From Synechococcus sp. PCC 7502 (GTDB taxonomy: Bacteria > Cyanobacteriota > Cyanobacteriia > Pseudanabaenales > Pseudanabaenaceae), in assembly GCF_000317085.1 (NCBI RefSeq), contig NC_019702.1, forward strand, positions 1,332,394 through 1,396,393: 64,000 nucleotides of DNA. Reading direction: 5' to 3'. Position numbers and translations under genes: made by a program. Below, in pieces: positions 50,863-63,405 of the stretch (positions are counted from its first letter, which is position 1; the number at the start of each line of letters is the position of its first letter). Under the pieces are notes generated by a model. It ran no database searches and was not told the origin of the DNA. It worked only from the letters and a program-made list of their open reading frames with translations.

Positions 50863-51318
50863 ATGTCTCTAGAAATCGGTAAACCTGCGCCAGACTTTAC
50901 TCTCCCTAGTGATCGCGGTGATATAACCCTTAGCCGCTATCAAGGTAAAACCAATGTCCTACTTGCCTTTTATCCAGCAGATTTTAGCCCCCTTTGCACT
51001 TTGGAAATGCAGTGCTTTGCCAATGATTGGACTAAATTTAGAGAGCTAGGTGCGGAAATTTTAGGTATAAATTCTGATCCCATAGAAAAACATAGTGAGT
51101 TCTCAAAAAAATTAGGTTTGGAGTTTCCCCTATTAAGCGATCGCTCCAAGGAAGTTGCGAAAAAGTATGGAGTCGATGATTTATTACTAGGAACAAAGCG
51201 TGCCTATTTCATTATTGATATTCAAGGCATCTTGAGATATAAACACATTGAGTTTTTACCAGTATTTAAGCGAGATGATACGGAACTACTGGTAGAACTG
51301 CGTAAATTAGCTACCTGA
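50863..51318 (+). CDS. Peroxiredoxin (AhpC/TSA family)
   Basis: The 151-residue thioredoxin-fold peroxidase has the N-terminal PAPDFTLPSDRGD and the peroxidatic Cys in FYPADFSPLCTLEMQCF. A second Cys lies six residues later, close to the spacing of PrxQ-type resolving cysteines but not identical. It probably reduces hydrogen peroxide or alkyl hydroperoxides. It is the last core gene before the accessory island. Confidence 0.9.
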   Translation: MSLEIGKPAPDFTLPSDRGDITLSRYQGKTNVLLAFYPADFSPLCTLEMQCFANDWTKFRELGAEILGINSDPIEKHSEFSKKLGLEFPLLSDRSKEVAKKYGVDDLLLGTKRAYFIIDIQGILRYKHIEFLPVFKRDDTELLVELRKLAT

Positions 51319-51365: not shown

Positions 51366-51851
51366 TCAAGAAGATTGAAATGAGAACTCATATTTGTTGA
51401 TAAACAAACCGATGACAATATCATGCATCACAATAGATTTAGAAAAGCAAATCGTCTTTCTGGCTAAACGCTTAATCCTCGTTCTCAAAGTTAGATGTTT
51501 ACGTTCAATCTTCTGAGTATTTTTCTTGCCGATCAAGTGAGTGTCAGGGTCAAGAATCCTTTCGTATGATCCCCAAGCATCAGTGAAAAAACGTTTGATG
51601 CCAAATGGTTTTAGCAGATTCACTAGCTTAACTAAGGCTTGGTCTTGATGTGGTGCTAAGACATAAGCTAAGAGTCCTCCAGTTACATGGTCAATGGCGT
51701 GCCATAACCATCTTTGTTGTTTTTTGCTGCCAACAAAACTCTACATCTCATCCATCTCTGCTTCTTCAACCGCATACAGGTCAACATCAAGTGTTTCTAA
51801 ATCAAGCTGTTCTAGCAGAGGATAGTTGACGGCTTCAATGTCTTCCTCTTT
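51366..51851 (-). pseudogene. insB: InsB transposase of IS1 copy A, nonsense mutation
   Basis: The frame meets insA at an A8 run (51849-51856) and reads DIEAVNYPLLEQLDLE, then DEM-stop-SFVGSKKQQRWLWHAID, GIKRFFTDAWGSYE and ERKHLTLRTRIKRLARKT. The stop (TAG at 51741-51743) replaces the Trp of the IS1 motif DE(L/M)WSFVG, probably a TGG to TAG change. The frame offset relative to insA is +1 rather than the -1 of active IS1 elements, so the A-run may also have changed length. Confidence 0.85.
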
Positions 51852-52122
51852 TTTTTAACTCCTTGATTACAGTATTGGGACTAATCTTCAATACTCGACC
51901 TGTATCCCTGATGCCACTGCCATTGATTGCCATCTCTGCAATTTGTTCTTCTTCTGGGCGATACCCTTGATAGGTGTAATCAAGAATAAGTGTCTTTCGC
52001 ATACAGTTCGTATTTAGGCAAATGTATCTTTTCTTGCTTGTGGCACTTTGTCCATGTCTGTGGATATCTACTCCTCCACAAGTTGCACATTCGAGTGCTT
52101 CAAATACCATCTTTTCTTTCAC
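51835..52122 (-). CDS. insA: InsA protein of IS1 copy A
   Basis: The 95-residue protein carries the CxxC zinc motif CATCGGVDIHRHGQ and C-terminal NGSGIRDTGRVLKISPNTVIKELKKRG, the helix-turn-helix of IS1 InsA. It ends after the A8 slippage run. On its own InsA binds the IS ends and represses. Confidence 0.85.
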   Translation of the reverse strand: MKEKMVFEALECATCGGVDIHRHGQSATSKKRYICLNTNCMRKTLILDYTYQGYRPEEEQIAEMAINGSGIRDTGRVLKISPNTVIKELKKRGRH

Positions 52123-52769: not shown

Positions 52770-52901
52770 CTATTTAGCTTGTCTAAGGTAAATCCAAGGG
52801 CGTATCTGCTCAGATTGCCATACCCCAAACTTATTAGCGATCGCCACCTTCTCAGCATTTATTAAAACTGTCTTTTGGGTAGGGCATGAGCCATAAGTAT
52901 A
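52770..52901 (-). pseudogene. Truncated C-terminal coding fragment, unidentified
   Basis: A minus-strand open frame runs from the edge of the IS5 fragment to TAG 52770, giving 43 residues (ending FGVWQSEQIRPWIYLRQAK). The frame carries a HIP1 octamer and looks like real coding sequence cut at its 5' side by the IS. No family is recognised. Confidence 0.35.
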
Positions 52902-53133
52902 GAGGCTGTTTCATATCTCATGAGTAGCAATTCTTTTTAGCATCAAACGAATAAAGCAAAGATTGAGTTTAGCTGTAGCATTAACGAGAGTTCTCTCAAA
53001 GTTCTTAACTAAGATTTTGCATCTTTCAACCCAAGCATTTGACCTTTCAATTACCCACCTTGTCGGCACAACTACAAACCCAGACAGACCTTTTTCTACC
53101 TTCTGTTGCTTTGATACCTTAGGAGAAATTTCA
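52902..53133 (-). mobile_element. IS5-family element fragment (left end)
   Basis: This 232-bp segment is about 97% identical by eye to 61051-61270, the end of the full IS5 element. It includes the terminal repeat (GAGGCTGTTTCATATCTC) and the transposase C-terminus ending at 52911 (WVERCKILVKNFERT, LMLKRIATHEI). Unlike the full copy it keeps 16 bp that the full copy has lost. The rest of the element is gone where IS1 copy B begins. Confidence 0.85.
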
Positions 53134-53192
53134 GGTAGTGATCAAGAGGGCATGATAGATAAAAAAAGGGGTAAAACAAAATAGAAGTAACT

Positions 53193-53495
53193 ATGGAAGT
53201 AAAATGTCCTTACTGTGAAAGTGACCAGATAGTTAAGAATGGCATAACCCGTCACAAAAAACAAAACTACAAATGTAAAAAGTGTAATCGTCAATTTGTG
53301 ATTAATCCCAAAAACCAGCCAATAGCTGAATCCACAATTAAATTAGTCGATAATCTGCTGCTAGAACGTATATCCATGCGAGGGATTAAGCGTGTTGCCA
53401 AGGTGTCATTACAGTGGTTACAGAGTTATGTAAATGGTAAGTCTGTCAGTGTAGAGCCGCAAGTTAAGGTAATCCCTAAAAAAAAGCACGCCTGA
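53193..53495 (+). CDS. insA: InsA protein of IS1 copy B
   Basis: The 100-residue protein has CPYCESDQIVKNGITRHKKQ (zinc CxxC) and YKCKKCNRQFVINPKN (second CxxC), then a helix-turn-helix region (ERISMRGIKRVAKVSLQWLQSY). It ends after an A8 run (53478-53485) where a -1 shift leads into insB, as in IS1. Confidence 0.88.
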   Translation: MEVKCPYCESDQIVKNGITRHKKQNYKCKKCNRQFVINPKNQPIAESTIKLVDNLLLERISMRGIKRVAKVSLQWLQSYVNGKSVSVEPQVKVIPKKKHA

Positions 53496-53925
53496 CCATT
53501 GAGTGCGATGAACTATGGTCATTTGTAGGGGATAAAAAATGTAAGGTATGGATTTGGTTAGCAATTGACCGAAATACTAGAGAAATTGTTGGAGTGTTTG
53601 TTGGTAGTCGAGACCAAGAACAGCCTTGGGGTTATGGCAATCTTTACCAACCGTTTATCGACAATGTGCTGTTTGTTATACTGACTTCTGGCAAGCTTAT
53701 AGCTGTATTTTGCCTAAAAAACGCCATAAGGCTGTGGGCAAAGAGTCTGGACAGACTAATCATATTGAAAGGTTCAATTGTACTTTAAGGCAAAGAATTT
53801 CTCGCCTTGTTAGAAAAACTCTTTCTTTTTCTAAGAAATTAGAAAATCATATCGGTGCTATTTGGATATTTATCCATCACTACAATTCTGAAATTCACTC
53901 TAAGTTCTGCATCATGCCCTCTTGA
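53480..53925 (+). pseudogene. insB: InsB transposase of IS1 copy B, frameshifted
   Basis: In the -1 frame after the A8 run the protein reads TIECDELWSFVGDKKCKVWIW and AIDRNTREIVGVFVGSRDQ, so the first catalytic Asp region is present. Near 53605-53625 the frame breaks, and the rest (GLWQSLPTVYRQCAVCYTDFW, NHIERFNCTLRQRISRLV) continues in another frame, consistent with a 1-nt deletion. This second shift is not part of the IS1 mechanism, so the transposase is inactive. Confidence 0.85.
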
Positions 53926-54073
53926 TCACTACCGTAAATTTTTCATTTGCATTACCTGCTTGAAAGTATTATGAGTTTACTTATATTTGAATGATGCTGG
54001 AATTTATATGAGATTTTAACTATTTCAAAGAATTTGCAATTTCTAAATACAATTTCTAAATTATTGGGAAGAG

Positions 54074-54643
54074 ATGCTAACAATACAACAACGCCTCAAT
54101 AAACTAGATCTAGAATTACGGAAACCTCAGTTAATTGAGAATCGGGGTATTGGTAACGAGATTGGCTTTTATATTTTTGACTACGATCCAGAGCATGAGC
54201 CTGTTGTCCAAGAGTTTCTACCGACTTTGAAGGTTAACCTAAAGAGGATTGGTTTTAAAGTTACAGAATTTAATCTGTATCAGATTATTCTCAATATTTT
54301 GGAAGAAAGGCAGTTATTGCAGAAAGCGTTTGAGTTGGAGTCTAAGCAGGGTAGTTTAGGGCTTGAAAGATCTATAAGACCTTTAGTACGTCCAGAACAA
54401 GCGATCGCCTATATGCAAAAGCAGATTCAAAATGATGAAGATTTAATATTTATTACTGGGGTTGGGGAAAGTTACCCATTGATGCGATCGCATTTAATTT
54501 TAAACAATCTGCATTCCGTCTTGGATCGTAAGCCATTAGTGATGTTTTTCCCCGGAGCTTATGATGGCCAAGAGTTAAAGCTATTTAATGCTTTTAGGGA
54601 TGATAATTACTACAGAGCTTTCTCAATTGTGGGTAGATCGTAA
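54074..54643 (+). CDS. brxB: BREX system protein BrxB (DUF1788)
   Basis: The 189-residue protein has the DUF1788 pattern: RLNKLDLELRKPQLIENRGIGNEIGFYIFDYDPEHE at the start, EDLIFITGVGESYPLMRSHLILNNL, and the closing PLVMFFPGAYDGQELKLF followed by YYRAFSIVGR. BrxB is an essential small component of type 1 BREX phage defence. The start is ATG 54074, directly after a GGAAGAG site. It is intact. brxA, which normally precedes it, is missing; IS1 copy B lies 140 bp upstream. Confidence 0.9.
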   Translation: MLTIQQRLNKLDLELRKPQLIENRGIGNEIGFYIFDYDPEHEPVVQEFLPTLKVNLKRIGFKVTEFNLYQIILNILEERQLLQKAFELESKQGSLGLERSIRPLVRPEQAIAYMQKQIQNDEDLIFITGVGESYPLMRSHLILNNLHSVLDRKPLVMFFPGAYDGQELKLFNAFRDDNYYRAFSIVGRS

Positions 54644-54700: not shown

Positions 54701-57700
54701 ATGCAAATAGCTGAACTGTTCAATAAAGATATCAGACGTAATATCAACGGCGTAATTAAAGTTGGGTAACAGGATGACGCAAGCATACGCCAAGAATTAG
54801 AGGAGTATGTTGTTACCAAGGAGTTGGATAAACATTTCCGTACTTTTTTTGATCGTCATACTAGTTCTCTAGATACGCCTACAGACAAAATGGGTGTTTG
54901 GATTGCCGGATTTTTTGGGTCTGGGAAGTCCTACTTTTTGAAAATCTTGGCATATTTATTAGAAAATCGCTTAATCGATCATAAACATGCCATTGATTTT
55001 TTTGATAGCGATCGCATTGCCGATCCATTATTAAGAGCGAATATCCAGCGATCCGTAAATATATCTGCTGATGTAATTTTGTTTAATATTGACTCGAAGT
55101 CTGATGCCAGTGGCAAAACCCAAAAAGATAGTATTGTCAAAGTTTTTCAGAAGGTTTTTGATGAGAAATTAGGGTATTTTGGGGCTGTACCAGCGATCGC
55201 TGAATTTGAAAGACAGCTAGATCAAAAAGGTAGCTATATTCCTTTCAAAAATGCATTTCAGTCAATTCATGGCAAGTCTTGGGAAGCTGAACGGGATGCT
55301 TGGGGATTTTGCCAAGAGAATATTGCTGAAGCTTTGCATATGAGTTTAGGTATGGGGAAGGATGAGGCAAATCGGTTAATAGATCGTTTTAATCAGCAGA
55401 TAGCTTTGACTCCTGAAAAATTTGCCCAAACGGTAAAAAGCTATTTAGATCGTCAAGGCAAGCAACACCAAGTTCTATTTATGGTAGACGAGGTGGGACA
55501 GTATATTGGCGAAAATAGCGACCTTATGCTCAACCTGCAAACTGTGGTAGAAGATTTGGGGGTTTACTGTCATGGTCGGGCTTGGGTAGTTGTGACATCC
55601 CAAGAGGCTATGGATGAAATTACTAAGAATCGCCTTAAAGGTAATGATTTTTCTAAAATTGTCGGTCGCTTTGGTCGTCCTCTTAGCCTTTCTTCAGCAA
55701 ATACCGATGATGTGATTCGGCTGAGATTATTGGTTAAAACCGATGTAGCTGGTGTTTACCTAAAAGGACTATATGCCCAGAAGGAGGCTATTCTTAAAAA
55801 TCAAATTGCCTTTAGCCAAGACTGTGCGGAGTTGCCTGGGTATAGGAGTGCTGAAGAATTTGCCTCGACTTATCCATTTATTCCGTACCAATTTACCCTA
55901 CTGCAAAAGGTATTTGAACAAATTCGGGTGATCGGGGCAGCAGGTAAACATTTAGCAATGGGAGAGCGATCGCTGTTGGATGCCTTTCAAATTGCAGCAA
56001 AGTCTTTTGCCGAGCATGAGATCGGGATTTTAGTGCCGTTTCAGAGATTTTATGATGCTATTGAAGGATTTCTAGATACTTCAGTAAAACGGGCGATCGC
56101 ACAGGCTGAGGAAAATTCACAGTTACAACAGGGCGATCTTGACTTACTTAAGACTCTGTTTATGGTCAAGTACATTAAAGAGATTCGTGCCAATTTAGAT
56201 AACCTAACTACGCTTTCATTAAGTAGCATCGATCAGGATAAATTAGCTTTGCGAGATCGCGTCCAAGCATCGTTAGAAAGATTGGAAAAACAAACCTTAA
56301 TTCAACGGGCTGAAGACCTGTATGTATTTCTCACCCAAGAGGAACAAGACATCGGACGCGAAATTAAGAATACGCCTATCAATCCTAGTGATGTAACGGA
56401 AGAACTACAGAAATTGGTATGGGGGTCAATCTTTACTGATAAAAAATATAAGTACGATGCTCGTCACCAGTATGATTTCAACAAAAAATTAGACGATCAT
56501 GGACATCAGGTAAATGATATTAGTTTGCATATCGTTACCCCCTATGCCGATCGCTATCGAGAGCTACAAGCAGATGAAACTTGTTTGATGGCAACTGGAT
56601 CGGGGCAGGAAGTATTGGTCAGGTTGCCAGACGATCCGCGCCTTATTGATGAAGCAAATGAGTTAGTGCAAACGGCTGAATACATTCGCACTAAAAATAC
56701 TCGCAATCTTAGTGCTTCGATTCAAAGAATTTTAAGCGATAGAAGCGATCTAAATAGCAAGCGAAAAGATCGTTTGACAAGTCTGATGCGATCGCTAATT
56801 GCCGAAGCCGATGTATTTGCCTGTGGTAGTAAAGTGCAGGTGACGAGTAGGGAGGCGCGAACGGTTTTGAATGATGGAATGCGCTATTTAGTTGAAAATG
56901 TTTATACCAAGTTGGGCTATATCCAGAGTGGCTTTGATGATGAAGCTGGAATTACCAATGCCCTAATTAGCGATATTGAAGTGCAAGATTTGAGTGGCAA
57001 TCATGCTAATGCCGCCGCCCATAGTGACATTCAACTATACCTTGCCGATGAGGCGCGATCGCATAGGAGAGTGAGCATTCGCAATGTGCGGGACAAGTTT
57101 GCAGGTCGTCCCTATGGTTGGGCGGAGTTGGATACTCTAGGGGCGATCGCTGAGTTAGTTAATAAAGGTAAGGTAGAGTTACGTCGCGCCCAAGAAATAG
57201 TTAACACCAGGGAGAAAGGTTTGGTAGCGAAGTTACGCTTGAAGTCTGGACTCGATGAGTATTTAGTAAGACTAACGGAAGAAGTCGATCCTACCAGCTT
57301 TAAGATTGCAAGAGATTTAGCAAATGAGCTATTGGAGACTGCCCCACCCACTGATTTTCAAAAGCTGCGTGAAGAATATATTAAGGCGTTTAATGCTCAA
57401 ATTCAGAAGCTGCAAGGTTGGCTAACTGTGGCAGAACGAGATAGTTTACCTTTTATTGATAAGCTGCGATCGCATATTGAGTTATTAGGGAAATTGCAAA
57501 ATACTGATGGTGTAGCTATTTTCTTTAAGGCTATCAAGGGCGATCGCGAGGCTTTAGAAACATACATTGACGATCGCGATAAACTTACCTCTTTCTTTAC
57601 CAGCCAATTGGTTATTTTTCAGAAGGCGATCGCTGAACTCAAAACCCTAGAACCCGACCTGCAACATATTAAAGAAGATACTTTGCTGGCACGGGTAGAA

Positions 57701-58252
57701 ACAGTAAAACAAATTTTGGCAATGCCAGATCCGACAGGACGTATTCCTGAATTAATGATGTTATTAAAGCCGATTCAGGATAAAGTACGGGAAATTTTAC
57801 AGGCGCAGGTTAATCAGGTACAACAGCAAAGCCTCAGACTACGAGAGAAAGTTCAAGAATATGTGACTCAAGCTCATGGGGATGTATACGATCGCCTAAA
57901 TCTGTCAACTCTTGATGTGGATATAAATCGGATTGTAGTAACTGCTAACCAATCAAGCACTATTGATTCCGCGATCGCCCGTCAGAGTGAGTTGTCGGGT
58001 TTATATAACGTATTAGTGTCACGCCTTGATGCTGAAGCGATCACTATCCAAACCGCTCAACAACAGGAGATGGGTAATTCAGTTACTCTACCTGTAGTGC
58101 CTGTGGTGAAGCCAATCGCAGTAATTAAGACAACGCGATCGATAAGTAAGCCAATTTTAGAAACAGAGGCAGATGTGAAAGAGTATCTACAGGCTCTGGG
58201 TAGAGAAATTATGAAGAAAATTAAGCAAGGTAAACGAGTAAGATTAGAATAA
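54701..58252 (+). pseudogene. brxC: BREX ATPase BrxC with premature stop at codon 23
   Basis: The frame encodes 1183 residues plus one internal stop. It starts MQIAELFNKDIRRNINGVIKV and meets TAA at 54767-54769, then continues QDDASIRQELEEYVVTKELD. The stop probably replaced a Gln codon (CAA to TAA). The rest is open: P-loop GFFGSGKS at about residues 70-77, FMVDEVGQYIG, HLAMGERSLLDAF and helical regions to the C-terminus. BrxC is the large ATPase of BREX. The next start downstream is TTG 54824 with AAGGAG directly touching it, a poor arrangement; that product would lose 41 residues. The reading frame is otherwise free of damage, so the stop is recent. Confidence 0.88.
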
Positions 58253-58413: not shown

Positions 58414-58764
58414 ATGCAAAGCTATATTCTGACTGCAAGGGCAAAGGAACAGGCAAACAGTAAAGCCTTAGAGTATAGGCGATCGCAAGCAATGGAAGTG
58501 GCTCAGGAAGCAGCAAAAATTCTGCGTTCTCAGTTTGGGGCAACTCGTGTTGTATTATTTGGGTCAGTTTTGAGCGATCCTGCTAATTATGGTTTTCACC
58601 AAGGCTCGGACATTGATTTGGCAGTTTGGGGTATCAGCGATCGCTTATATTTTAAGGCTGTAGGCAAGGTGCAAGGACTGAGCGAATTTGCAATTGATGT
58701 GGTTGAGCCAGAGGATGCGCCATCCTATATTTTGGAAGCGATCGCGAAAGGAGTAGAGCTATGA
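58414..58764 (+). CDS. mntA: MNT-type nucleotidyltransferase antitoxin
   Basis: The 116-residue protein has a minimal nucleotidyltransferase domain: VVLFGSVLSD (GS), then SDIDLAVWG with the catalytic DxD. The spacing between GS and DID is 14 residues, four more than the usual GSX10DXD. MNT antitoxins inactivate their HEPN toxin partner by AMPylating its Tyr. The stop overlaps the HEPN start by 4 bp. It lies between brxC and pglX in a BREX locus. Confidence 0.85.
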   Translation: MQSYILTARAKEQANSKALEYRRSQAMEVAQEAAKILRSQFGATRVVLFGSVLSDPANYGFHQGSDIDLAVWGISDRLYFKAVGKVQGLSEFAIDVVEPEDAPSYILEAIAKGVEL

Positions 58765-59240
58765 GCCGTTATGGGGTATTAGTGGCTAGATTACAAAATG
58801 AACTGAGTAATGTTCGCAATGCTATGAGATCGGCTGTATCCCAGTCTGAGAAAGCTAAAAGAACGGAGGACAATGATTTTTGGCTGGCGGCAGCTTTTAG
58901 TTTGCAAAATTTCTATATGGGGACAGAGCGCATTTTTGAAGATGTTGCCAAGCAGATCGATAATGCCTTACCATCTGGGGCAAATTCCCATCGTGAGCTT
59001 TTAGAACAAATGGCGTTAAATATAGCTGATACTCGCCCACCTGTAATTTTGCAGGATACACTGGAACGCTTACAAGATTATCGAGGGTTTCGGCACGTAG
59101 CTATTCATCGGTATGGGTTTGAGCTTCGACCAGATCGCATTCGTGAGTTGGTGGAAATTCTCCCAGATACCGTAGAGATGTTGTCTAGAGACGTTAAGTC
59201 ATTTTGTGAGTTTTTGATAGCCCTAGAGAAAAATATATGA
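58761..59240 (+). CDS. hepT: HEPN toxin, HepT-like
   Basis: The 159-residue all-helical protein carries the HEPN RNase motif RX4HXY at residues 111-118 (R111, H116, Y118), exactly the form in which the MNT partner modifies the Tyr. Long helices (LVARLQNELSNVRNAMRSAV) and an ERIFEDVAKQID stretch fit the fold. Active HEPN toxins cut RNA. The gene overlaps mntA by 4 bp upstream and pglX by 4 bp downstream. Intact. Confidence 0.85.
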   Translation: MSRYGVLVARLQNELSNVRNAMRSAVSQSEKAKRTEDNDFWLAAAFSLQNFYMGTERIFEDVAKQIDNALPSGANSHRELLEQMALNIADTRPPVILQDTLERLQDYRGFRHVAIHRYGFELRPDRIRELVEILPDTVEMLSRDVKSFCEFLIALEKNI

Positions 59241-61050
59241 ACCGTACTGCCATCCGTAATTTTGCAACATGGGCGAGAACAACTTTGCTATTTCAGGTGC
59301 GATCGCGCCTTAATACCTATGGCATAAGCGAAAAGGGGATTGTAGAGCCACAGGTGGTGGTAGGGGGCATAACGGTAAATGGGCTGACTTTGAATGATGA
59401 TGAAGCAAAACATTACCAGCAGCTAAGATCGCAAATTGGCGGCAATATAAATATAGAAGTAATCGCCAAAATCACGGAAGAGATTGCCTATAAATGGTTT
59501 AACCGTTTGGTTGCCTTGCGCTTTATGGAGGTAAATGGCTATTTAAGCTATCGCTGTTTGAGTAGTAGCGATCCGCAGTTGGTCGATCCCGATTTGTTGC
59601 GCGAGGTGGGGGCGATCGCAGAAGGTGGAGATTTTGATGATCTAAATTTGGCAAAGCTGAGTGCATGGCGGGAGTCGGCGAGTAAGCAGCCCAATCCTGA
59701 TGAGTGGCTATATCGCCAGTTATTACTTTTACAGTGTGGGGCTTTGGCAGATGCGATCGCCTGTTTGTTTGACCGCAATCACGATTACACGATGTTATTT
59801 TTGCCGCCCAATTTGCTGAATAATGATTCGATTTTACGGCGATTGGTGGGTGATATTGCGGAAGAGGATTGGCAGGATATTGAGATTGTGGGCTGGCTCT
59901 ATCAGTTTTATATTTCTGAGAAAAAGGATGAGGTAATCGGCGCAAAGTCAAAGGTAAAAGCAGAGGATATTCCAGCCGCAACGCAATTGTTTACGCCCCA
60001 TTGGATTGTGCGTTATATGGTGGAAAATTCGTTGGGTCGATTGTGGCTAGAGTCCCATCCTGAGTCAAACTTAAGGGAGAAGATGCCCTATTATTTGGAG
60101 TCTGCTCCTAGTTCTGGAGGTGTAAAAACTGTGCTGGTTCCCCAAGACCTCACGGTATGCGATCCTGCCTGTGGAAGCGGTCACATTTTGGTTTATGCCT
60201 TTGATTTGTTATTTGAAATCTACAAAGAGCAGGGATATGTAGAGCGAGATATTCCAGCTTTGATTTTGGCGCATAATTTATTCGGTTTGGATATTGATAA
60301 TCGTGCCGTGCAGTTGGCTAGTTTTGCGGTATTGATGAAGGCGAGGGCAAAGAATTCACGTTTTTTACGGAAGGTGCCGAAGTTAAATATTGTGTGGGTG
60401 CGGCATACGCGGCAGTTTTTTAGTGAGAAGGAAATTGCAAAAACCGAACAAGTAACCATTGTGAGTCATCAAATGTCTTTGGCGGGGATGGGTTTGGTCG
60501 ACCAGTTACCTTTGGGATATGTGGCTCCAACTAAAAAGACTTCGTTTGTTTCGTTTTTAACCGATCAACGTTCTATTTCTAATTCTCTTGTGGCTCTGTT
60601 ATCTGCTTTTGTGGATGCGGATAATTTGGGTAGTTTGATCGTGCCGCCTGTATTTAATGCGGATCGAATTTATGCGGAATTGAATGAACTGGAAGGGAAG
60701 TTTTCGCTGTTTGCGGATTTTGCGGTGTTGCGAGATGTGGTGAGGTAGGGAGACAGTATTTAGCGGTGGTAGCGAATCCTCCTTACATGGGAAGTAAGTC
60801 TTTTAATGACAAATTAAATGCTTTTATCGTTAGCAATTACAAAAAAGGTAAGTCTGACCTATTCGCTGCTTTTATTGAACGCTTACTACAAATGATGGAT
60901 TCATCTGGTCTAACAGCAATGGTGGTAATGCAGTCTTGGATGTTTTTAAGTAGCTATGAAGATTTACGGACTGATTTTTTAAAGAATTACGAGATTCCTT
61001 CATTAGTTCACATGGATAATTAAGTTATCCAAATTTTAAAGGAGCGTATA
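59237..61050 (+). pseudogene. pglX: BREX methyltransferase PglX, frameshifted and truncated
   Basis: The N-terminal 503 residues are open and show NRTAIRNFATWARTTLLFQVR, LVALRFMEVNGYL, WLYQFYISEKKDE, LFTPHWIVRYMVENSLGRLW, and the SAM motif CDPACGSGHIL followed by FGLDIDNRAVQLASFAV. The frame stops at 60746, while the catalytic NPPY lies at 60775-60786 in the frame two bases on (RQYLAVVANPPYMGSKSF), which fits a 1-nt deletion just before it. The second frame stops at 61021, and the sequence is cut at 61050 by an IS5 element. Normal PglX is about 1200 residues, so about half is gone. PglX methylates host DNA for BREX self-recognition. Confidence 0.9.
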
Positions 61051-61059
61051 GAGCCTGTT

Positions 61060-61594
61060 TCATATCTCATGAGTAGCAATTCTTTTTAGCATCAAGCGAA
61101 TAAAGCAAAGATTGAGTTTAGCTGTAGCATTAACGAGAGTTCTCTCAAAGTTCTTAACTAAGATTTTGCATCTTTCAACCCAAGTACCCACCTTGTCGGC
61201 ACAACTACAAACCCAGACAGACCTTTTTCTGCCTTCTGTTGCTTTGATACCTTAGGAGAAATTTCAAACCTAATCTTAGTCATAATCTCAGGATAAACCT
61301 TCTGTAAATCAGTCGTCAATTTTTCGATATGATAACCACTATCCAGCAATATCGTAGTTAGCGTAATGTCATCTGGCTTCGATTTGAAGTAATCAATGTT
61401 AATCGTTAACATTTCAATCAGTCCTTGGTCATCTGATACATTTGCTCTTGTTAAATACCCAGAGTGTCAACGGCTAAATGTCTTTTGATCCCGTTAGTTG
61501 CTTTGTAGGAGCAGAAGCCCTTGGATTCTATACTTGCATTACAAGTATTTTTCACTGCTTGTGAGTCAATGATGATTAAAGTTGTCCATTTTGA
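61060..61594 (-). pseudogene. IS5 transposase ORF B, broken by two deletions
   Basis: After the A8 run the frame reads SKWTTLIIIDSQAVKNTCNA and HLAVDTLGI, then stops where a short deletion removed bases present in homologs. The next part (LTRANVSDDQGLIEMLT, LLDSGYHIEKL) is in another frame, and a 16-bp deletion near 61180, seen by comparing with the 52902-53133 fragment, breaks the frame again before the end (TLVNATAKLNLCF). The DDE domain is thus not expressed. Confidence 0.85.
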
Positions 61595-61877
61595 TTTTTT
61601 TTGACTGTTCACGGGCTGTTGAATGCAAAGCTTCCATAATCGCAGTAAATGTACCTGTATCTTTCCACTCCTTGTAGTATCGATACACTGTAGAGAATGG
61701 TGGTAAGTCTCGGGGCATATCTCGCCAATTACAACCGTTTTTGAGTTGGTAGAGTATGCCGTCTAAAATTTGTCTTTTTGTCCAAGTTGGCGGTCTAGTT
61801 TGCTTTTTCTTTGGGAGCAATGGTTCTATAATTTCCCATTCTTTATCTGTTAGGCTACTTGAGTATGGATTTAGCAT
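61566..61877 (-). CDS. IS5 transposase ORF A
   Basis: The 103-residue protein reads LTDKEWEIIEPLLPKKKQTR, KRQILDGILYQLKNGCNWRDMP and VYRYYKEWKDTGTF, the N-terminal domain of IS5-family transposases (DUF4096-type). It ends at the A8 run. ATG start at 61877. Confidence 0.88.
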   Translation of the reverse strand: MLNPYSSSLTDKEWEIIEPLLPKKKQTRPPTWTKRQILDGILYQLKNGCNWRDMPRDLPPFSTVYRYYKEWKDTGTFTAIMEALHSTAREQSKKIKMDNFNHH

Positions 61878-62022
61878 TTTCTAAGCATCATAAATCTTGC
61901 TCATAATAGATATGAAACAGGCTCTATAAAAAGTAAGCTTAGGCTTAGCAAGAATATAAAAATATTTTAGCTATCCCATTCAAAATGCTATAGTAAAGAT
62001 TTGAGTTTGCTAAATTAAAGTT

Positions 62023-63405
62023 ATGTCCTTACCCATTGTTGCTGTTGTTGGTCGCCCGAACGTGGGTAAGTCTGCTTTAGTGAATCGCCTGACTGGGGAA
62101 AATTATGCCATTGTTTATGATCAGCCAGGTATAACTCGCGATCGCACCTATCGACCAGCTTTTTGGAATGGACATGATTTTACCATTGTTGATACGGGCG
62201 GTTTAGTTTTTGCCGATGATACGGAATTTTTACCGATGATCCGTCAACAGGCTTTTGTGGCGATCGAGCAGTCCTGTGCTGTGATTTTTGTGGTTGATGG
62301 CATGACAGGCATTACTGCCGCCGATTGGCAAATTGCCCAGTGGCTAAGGGAGCAGTCTGTCCCAGTGGTATTAGCAGTCAACAAGTGCGAATCCATGAAT
62401 TTGGGCATGGCGCAGGCAGCAGAATTCTGGCAGTTAGGACTAGGTGAGCCGATCGCTTTGTCTTCTTTGCATGGTAATGGTACGGGGGAATTATTAGATG
62501 CCCTAGTGCAGCACTTACCTGATCCAGATACGGTTGAGCCAGAGAGCGATGAAATTAAAGTGGCAATTATTGGTCGCCCCAATGTCGGTAAATCCAGCTT
62601 ACTAAATGCCTTTACGGGTGAAGAACGCTGTATTGTTAGCCCGATTGCGGGAACTACCCGTGATGCGATCGATATGATAGTCTCTCGCACTGTAAATGGA
62701 GAAGAGCGCAATTACCGTCTAATTGATACCGCAGGAATTAGGCGCAAACGTGGGGTAGAATACGGGGCTGAATTTTTTAGCATTAATCGAGCTTTTAAGG
62801 CGATCAGCAGATCGGATGTGGTGCTTTTAGTAATTGATGCGATCGATGGGGTTACAGATCAAGATCAAAAACTGGCAGGCAGAATTAACGATGAAGGTAA
62901 AGCCTGTGTGCTAGTAATTAACAAGTGGGATGCGGTAGAAAAGGATTCCTATACCATCTATGACTACACGGAACAGGTACAATCTCGGATGATGTTTGTG
63001 GACTATGCTCCAGTGATATTTGTCAGTGCTTTGACTGGGCAAAGGGTTCCTAAAATCTTGGATCAAGTTGATATTGTGGCAGAGCAGCATCGGCGCAGAG
63101 TTCCTACGGCAGTTTTAAATGAAGTTTTAACTGAGGCTGTTTCTTGGCATTCTCCTCCCACTACTCGTCAAGGGAAACAAGGTAGAATCTACTATGGTAC
63201 CCAAGTTTCAGCTTCCCCACCTGCAATTATTCTCTTTTGCAATGATCCAAAGCGATTTAATGATAGCTATCGTCGTTATGTGGAGAATCAATTTCGCACT
63301 TCCTTAGGGTTTACAGGTACCCCGTTGCGATTAATTTGGCGTGGCAAGAAAGAAAGAGAAATGGAGCGAACTGCTAATCGTGCCACTAAGGTAAAGCTCT
63401 CTTAA
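62023..63405 (+). CDS. der: Double-GTPase ribosome assembly factor Der (EngA)
   Basis: The 460-residue protein has two GTPase domains: [21 protein letters not shown] and NKCES in the first, [32 protein letters not shown] and NKWDAVEK in the second, then a KH-like domain with [21 protein letters not shown]. Der matures the 50S subunit. It is the first core gene after the island. Confidence 0.97.

Follow-up and report, generated by a model that had tools for sequence, protein, structure and literature searches.

A premature stop codon in brxC within an apparent type I BREX remnant of the cyanobacterium Synechococcus sp. PCC 7502

In laboratory Salmonella strains the StySA BREX system is disabled, having lost both of its activities to mutations in brxC and in one of its partners (PMC9009780). 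StySA carries multiple mutations in brxC and pglZ along with a wild-type pglX sequence (PMC9009780), whereas the locus described here has a nonsense codon in brxC and has lost whole genes beside insertion sequence (IS) elements. The BrxC encoded in our window, the whole stretch of 64,000 nucleotides that was analyzed, is homologous over its whole length to Acinetobacter BrxC, for which a structure is available (9zdx; PMC13326643), and has the same AAA+ core (E = 1.4e-213 to the solved chain 9zdx_C). Unlike the Acinetobacter protein, it is interrupted at codon 23.

The type I BREX systems of the Pseudanabaena relatives G026 (L023/L122) and G030 (L024/L123) have the same brxB-brxC-pglX order as the window, with BrxC 66-67% identical and the N-terminal part of PglX about 70-76% identical. 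In both relatives brxB, brxC and pglX are open and are followed by pglZ and brxL, with brxA on the other strand; the window, in contrast, has a stop in brxC, half a pglX and no pglZ, brxL or brxA. Given the shared gene run and the full gene set in these relatives, the locus is best read, on sequence comparison, as what is left of a complete type I BREX anti-phage system, here in a cyanobacterium of the Pseudanabaenaceae. We also considered a minimal brxB-brxC-pglX system without pglZ and rejected it, as pglZ, brxL and brxA are present further downstream in the relatives. In G026, beyond brxL and brxA (L122:6871-10233), lie a helicase gene resembling DpdE/ZorD and then a divergent WYL regulator gene, and the BREX system of that genome appears to sit in a wider defence island.

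The brxC frame and its ochre codon

The brxC frame (54701..58252, forward strand, as are all features below unless stated) is a pseudogene for the BREX ATPase with one internal stop, identified by translation and by BrxC profile and structure matches. Translation yields 1183 codons, not counting the terminal stop, and confirms the earlier note in that the frame is open save for an ochre codon, the TAA of codon 23 (54767..54769), directly followed by CAG GAT GAC. Downstream of that stop, the frame matches PADLOC profile PDLC02471 over profile positions 24-1190 of 1190 (1277 bits) and has Pfam matches to the fourth, the wHTH and the helical domain of BrxC. With this full-length profile match and a Walker A motif (GFFGSGKS), the frame belongs to the BrxC/PglY ATPase family, interrupted as written. 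In a genome-wide search, 54701-58252 was the only match to this BrxC, and no second brxC able to complement it was found. The other genome of the genus (85% complete) gave no brxC match. In another genome of the family, L016 (G010:C172:29270-29362) matches the window BrxC at 65% identity over a scrap of 31 residues within a 45-residue open frame, perhaps a second, further decayed brxC copy.

The codon-23 column was examined in an N-terminal alignment of 38 BrxC homologs belonging to its subfamily, taken from cyanobacterial, Bacillota and other genomes. All 38 have Gln (CAA or CAG) in this column and none has a stop, which bears out the suggestion that codon 23 once encoded Gln; one transition suffices to turn the Gln codon into the observed TAA. 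More distant BrxC (31% identity) show a two-residue gap at this position, so Gln-23 characterizes the subfamily rather than BrxC as a whole. The earlier note had named homologs starting at the equivalent of TTG 54824 as grounds for doubting the lesion. None of the 38 begins there, and we reject this alternative start; each of the 38 has a start on or close to the position that corresponds to ATG 54701. Given these starts and the uniform Gln column, the TAA is a genuine nonsense allele or, conceivably, an error in base calling, with a misplaced start ruled out.

The rest of the frame bears on the age of the lesion. As a test of constraint, we took the sites at which cyanobacterial BrxC does not otherwise vary and counted the changes seen in one sequence only; the window brxC has 15 at 424 such sites, compared to 5 to 35 in intact copies. 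Relaxed selection is rejected on this count, which lies within the intact range and gives no sign of long decay. A simple Poisson calculation, on the assumption that brxC has decayed neutrally since losing its use, equates one nonsense codon and no frameshift in 3.5 kb with roughly 0.6-0.7% neutral divergence (upper 95% bound near 3%). As the rest of the frame lacks relaxed constraint, brxC was under normal constraint until lately and died recently. The suggestion that the loss was recent thus fits a gene with no other lesion and no excess change at constrained sites.

The same clean frame could point to a sequencing or assembly error, in which case the true brxC would have a Gln codon and an open frame, and BREX would still be dead via pglX, pglZ, brxL and brxA. 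One base would account for the stop, and the 3.5-kb frame, which shows no relaxed constraint, has no other lesion, but the genome is near-complete in three contigs, the stop site lies outside a homopolymer run (GTTGGGTAACAGG), and the broken operon offers an independent reason for decay; we consider such an error unlikely.

Missing partners and IS elements

Upstream of brxC, brxB is an intact frame (54074..54643; PDLC02463, 1.5e-67; PF08747), and of the brxB and brxC expected in type I BREX only brxC is interrupted. Downstream lie two further intact frames, one for a minimal nucleotidyltransferase (MNT-like; 58414..58764; weak PF18765/PF01909 matches) and one for a HepT-like protein (58761..59240; PF20797, 4e-31). 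HEPN and MNT modules have been described in BREX loci (PMC12839542). The MNT/HepT-like pair, which lies between brxC and the broken pglX, may be a toxin-antitoxin pair slowing loss of the remnant.

The earlier note saw no other lesion, which holds for brxC itself and fails for the operon, as pglX is frameshifted and truncated and pglZ, brxA and brxL were not found genome-wide. The 5' part of pglX (59237..60748; PDLC02521, 8e-157, profile positions 1-454 of 1174) matches intact homologs from its start. Comparison with intact PglX places a frameshift near 60748, where the frame ends, and resumption in another frame at 60751; this continuation (60751..61023, the NPPY region) is ended by a further TAA (61021-61023), and homology is gone at about 61030. 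At the break lies an IS5-family element (61047..61928, reverse strand) with a DUF4096 transposase in pieces and perfect 21-nt terminal inverted repeats (TATAGAGCCTGTTTCATATCT). As no remainder of pglX was found beyond this element, the break is more than a simple insertion. The next host gene, der (62023..63405, encoding a GTPase), begins 94 bp beyond the IS, leaving no room for pglZ, brxL or brxA. The layout of broken pglX, IS and der suggests that the deletion was IS-mediated. In G001, G005 and G014, searched for an empty site beside der, der was found with neither brx genes nor the left flank of the window adjacent to it.

The IS5-family element (882-914 bp) is present in about 40 near-full copies in the 3.6-Mb genome, and their 94-100% identity points to a recent expansion. 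In the window copy at 61047-61928 the transposase is split across several frames. An end fragment of the same element (52897..53135, reverse strand) is 98-99% identical to 61046-61266, and an IS1-like element with inverted repeats and an InsA zinc-ribbon lies upstream of brxB (53123..53944). This IS1-like element and a stretch of IS1-type debris (51366-52122), with open frames in pieces, both lie between a peroxiredoxin-like gene (50863-51318) and brxB.

In searches of the whole genome (99.93% complete, three contigs), none of the four other type I components, PglZ, an intact PglX, BrxL and BrxA, was found. For PglZ, there was no PF08665 match, and the same search was positive in 9 of 10 relatives. 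Similarly, no PF08849 match was found for BrxA, which was detected in all four relatives searched. BrxL gave only a 21-bit partial match, of a kind that relatives also have besides their true BrxL. PglX is represented by the two broken pieces in the window, with matches elsewhere of at most 37 bits to other long open frames.

Read-through and reinitiation

A working BrxC could still be made by read-through of the UAA or by reinitiation at TTG 54824 (54824..54826, codon 42), as the earlier note proposed, or at ATG 54890 (54890..54892, codon 64), which is the earliest in-frame ATG past codon 23 and immediately precedes Walker A. In favour of such a bypass, the sequence beyond codon 23 is an open, constrained frame, and both restart codons are upstream of the Walker A motif. 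Read-through finds no support among the tRNA genes, which were identified by an Rfam tRNA search, with anticodons assigned by ARAGORN, a procedure that a divergent tRNA could escape. None of the 42 in the genome has the ochre suppressor anticodon TTA, and CTA and TCA are likewise absent, so a suppressor tRNA is rejected. Neither hallmark of a recoded gene, a cognate suppressor tRNA or a stop conserved in homologs, is thus present. Of 42 long open frames in the window, 25 end in TAA, so there is nothing unusual about it as a stop codon.

Reinitiation fares no better. An AAGGAG motif abuts TTG 54824 with zero spacer, no Shine-Dalgarno motif was found upstream of ATG 54890, and no homolog begins at the former. 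A restart at TTG 54824 would drop the invariant residues between 7 and 41, and either restart would cost residues that do not vary even in BrxC of 31% identity. The partner genes are also missing; because the surrounding BREX operon is broken, a bypass of the brxC stop would rescue nothing known. Given the above, we regard functional bypass as very improbable. Also scarcely credible is a trimmed unit retained for some function outside BREX, made up of brxB, the intact MNT/HepT pair and a BrxC restarted at ATG 54890 or TTG 54824, whose output the ochre codon would reduce. The stop reflects ordinary pseudogenisation, not hidden read-through.

Decay of the BREX locus

It is highly probable that a recent nonsense mutation in brxC struck a type I BREX remnant already disabled, or disabled at about the same time, by IS-associated loss of partner genes. 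Under this scenario, a deletion beside the IS5-family element would have removed the 3' half of pglX along with pglZ, brxL and brxA, and pglX would also have acquired its frameshift. Once PglX and PglZ were gone, the brxC product would have had no known task. Later or at about the same time, a single substitution would have converted the conserved Gln-23 codon to TAA, and translation would halt after 22 residues, with no BrxC made. The stop, the damage to pglX, the negative genome-wide searches for partner genes and the conservation of Gln-23 and of the start are observed; we infer that the relatives' gene set was ancestral here, the role of the IS, the order of events and the absence of BrxC protein. 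Some features sit less easily with this explanation: brxC apart from its stop looks intact and constrained, and the frames of brxB and of the MNT/HepT pair are uninterrupted, so decay of the locus has not been uniform.

Inactivation of brxC is best read as neutral, or perhaps mildly favoured. A variant counted inside the recent-mutation explanation holds that the nonsense codon was selected, leftover BrxB and BrxC being costly after loss of pglX and pglZ. E. coli grows more slowly when brxB or pglZ is deleted from an Acinetobacter BREX (PMC9122589), and poor growth has also been published for some BREX mutants that lack methylation (PMC13326643). However, the published cost arises with PglX present, and PglX is broken here; as sequence does not separate selection from drift, we hold this variant to be doubtful.

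Seen beside a broken pglX and the absence of pglZ, brxL and brxA, a single stop in an otherwise clean frame is less of a puzzle than it first appears. By itself the brxC lesion matters little; the locus is a further example of a defence system at an early stage of decay. For annotators, this genome should not be scored BREX-positive from its BrxC and BrxB matches, and a lone stop of this kind needs to be judged in the context of its entire operon and genome.
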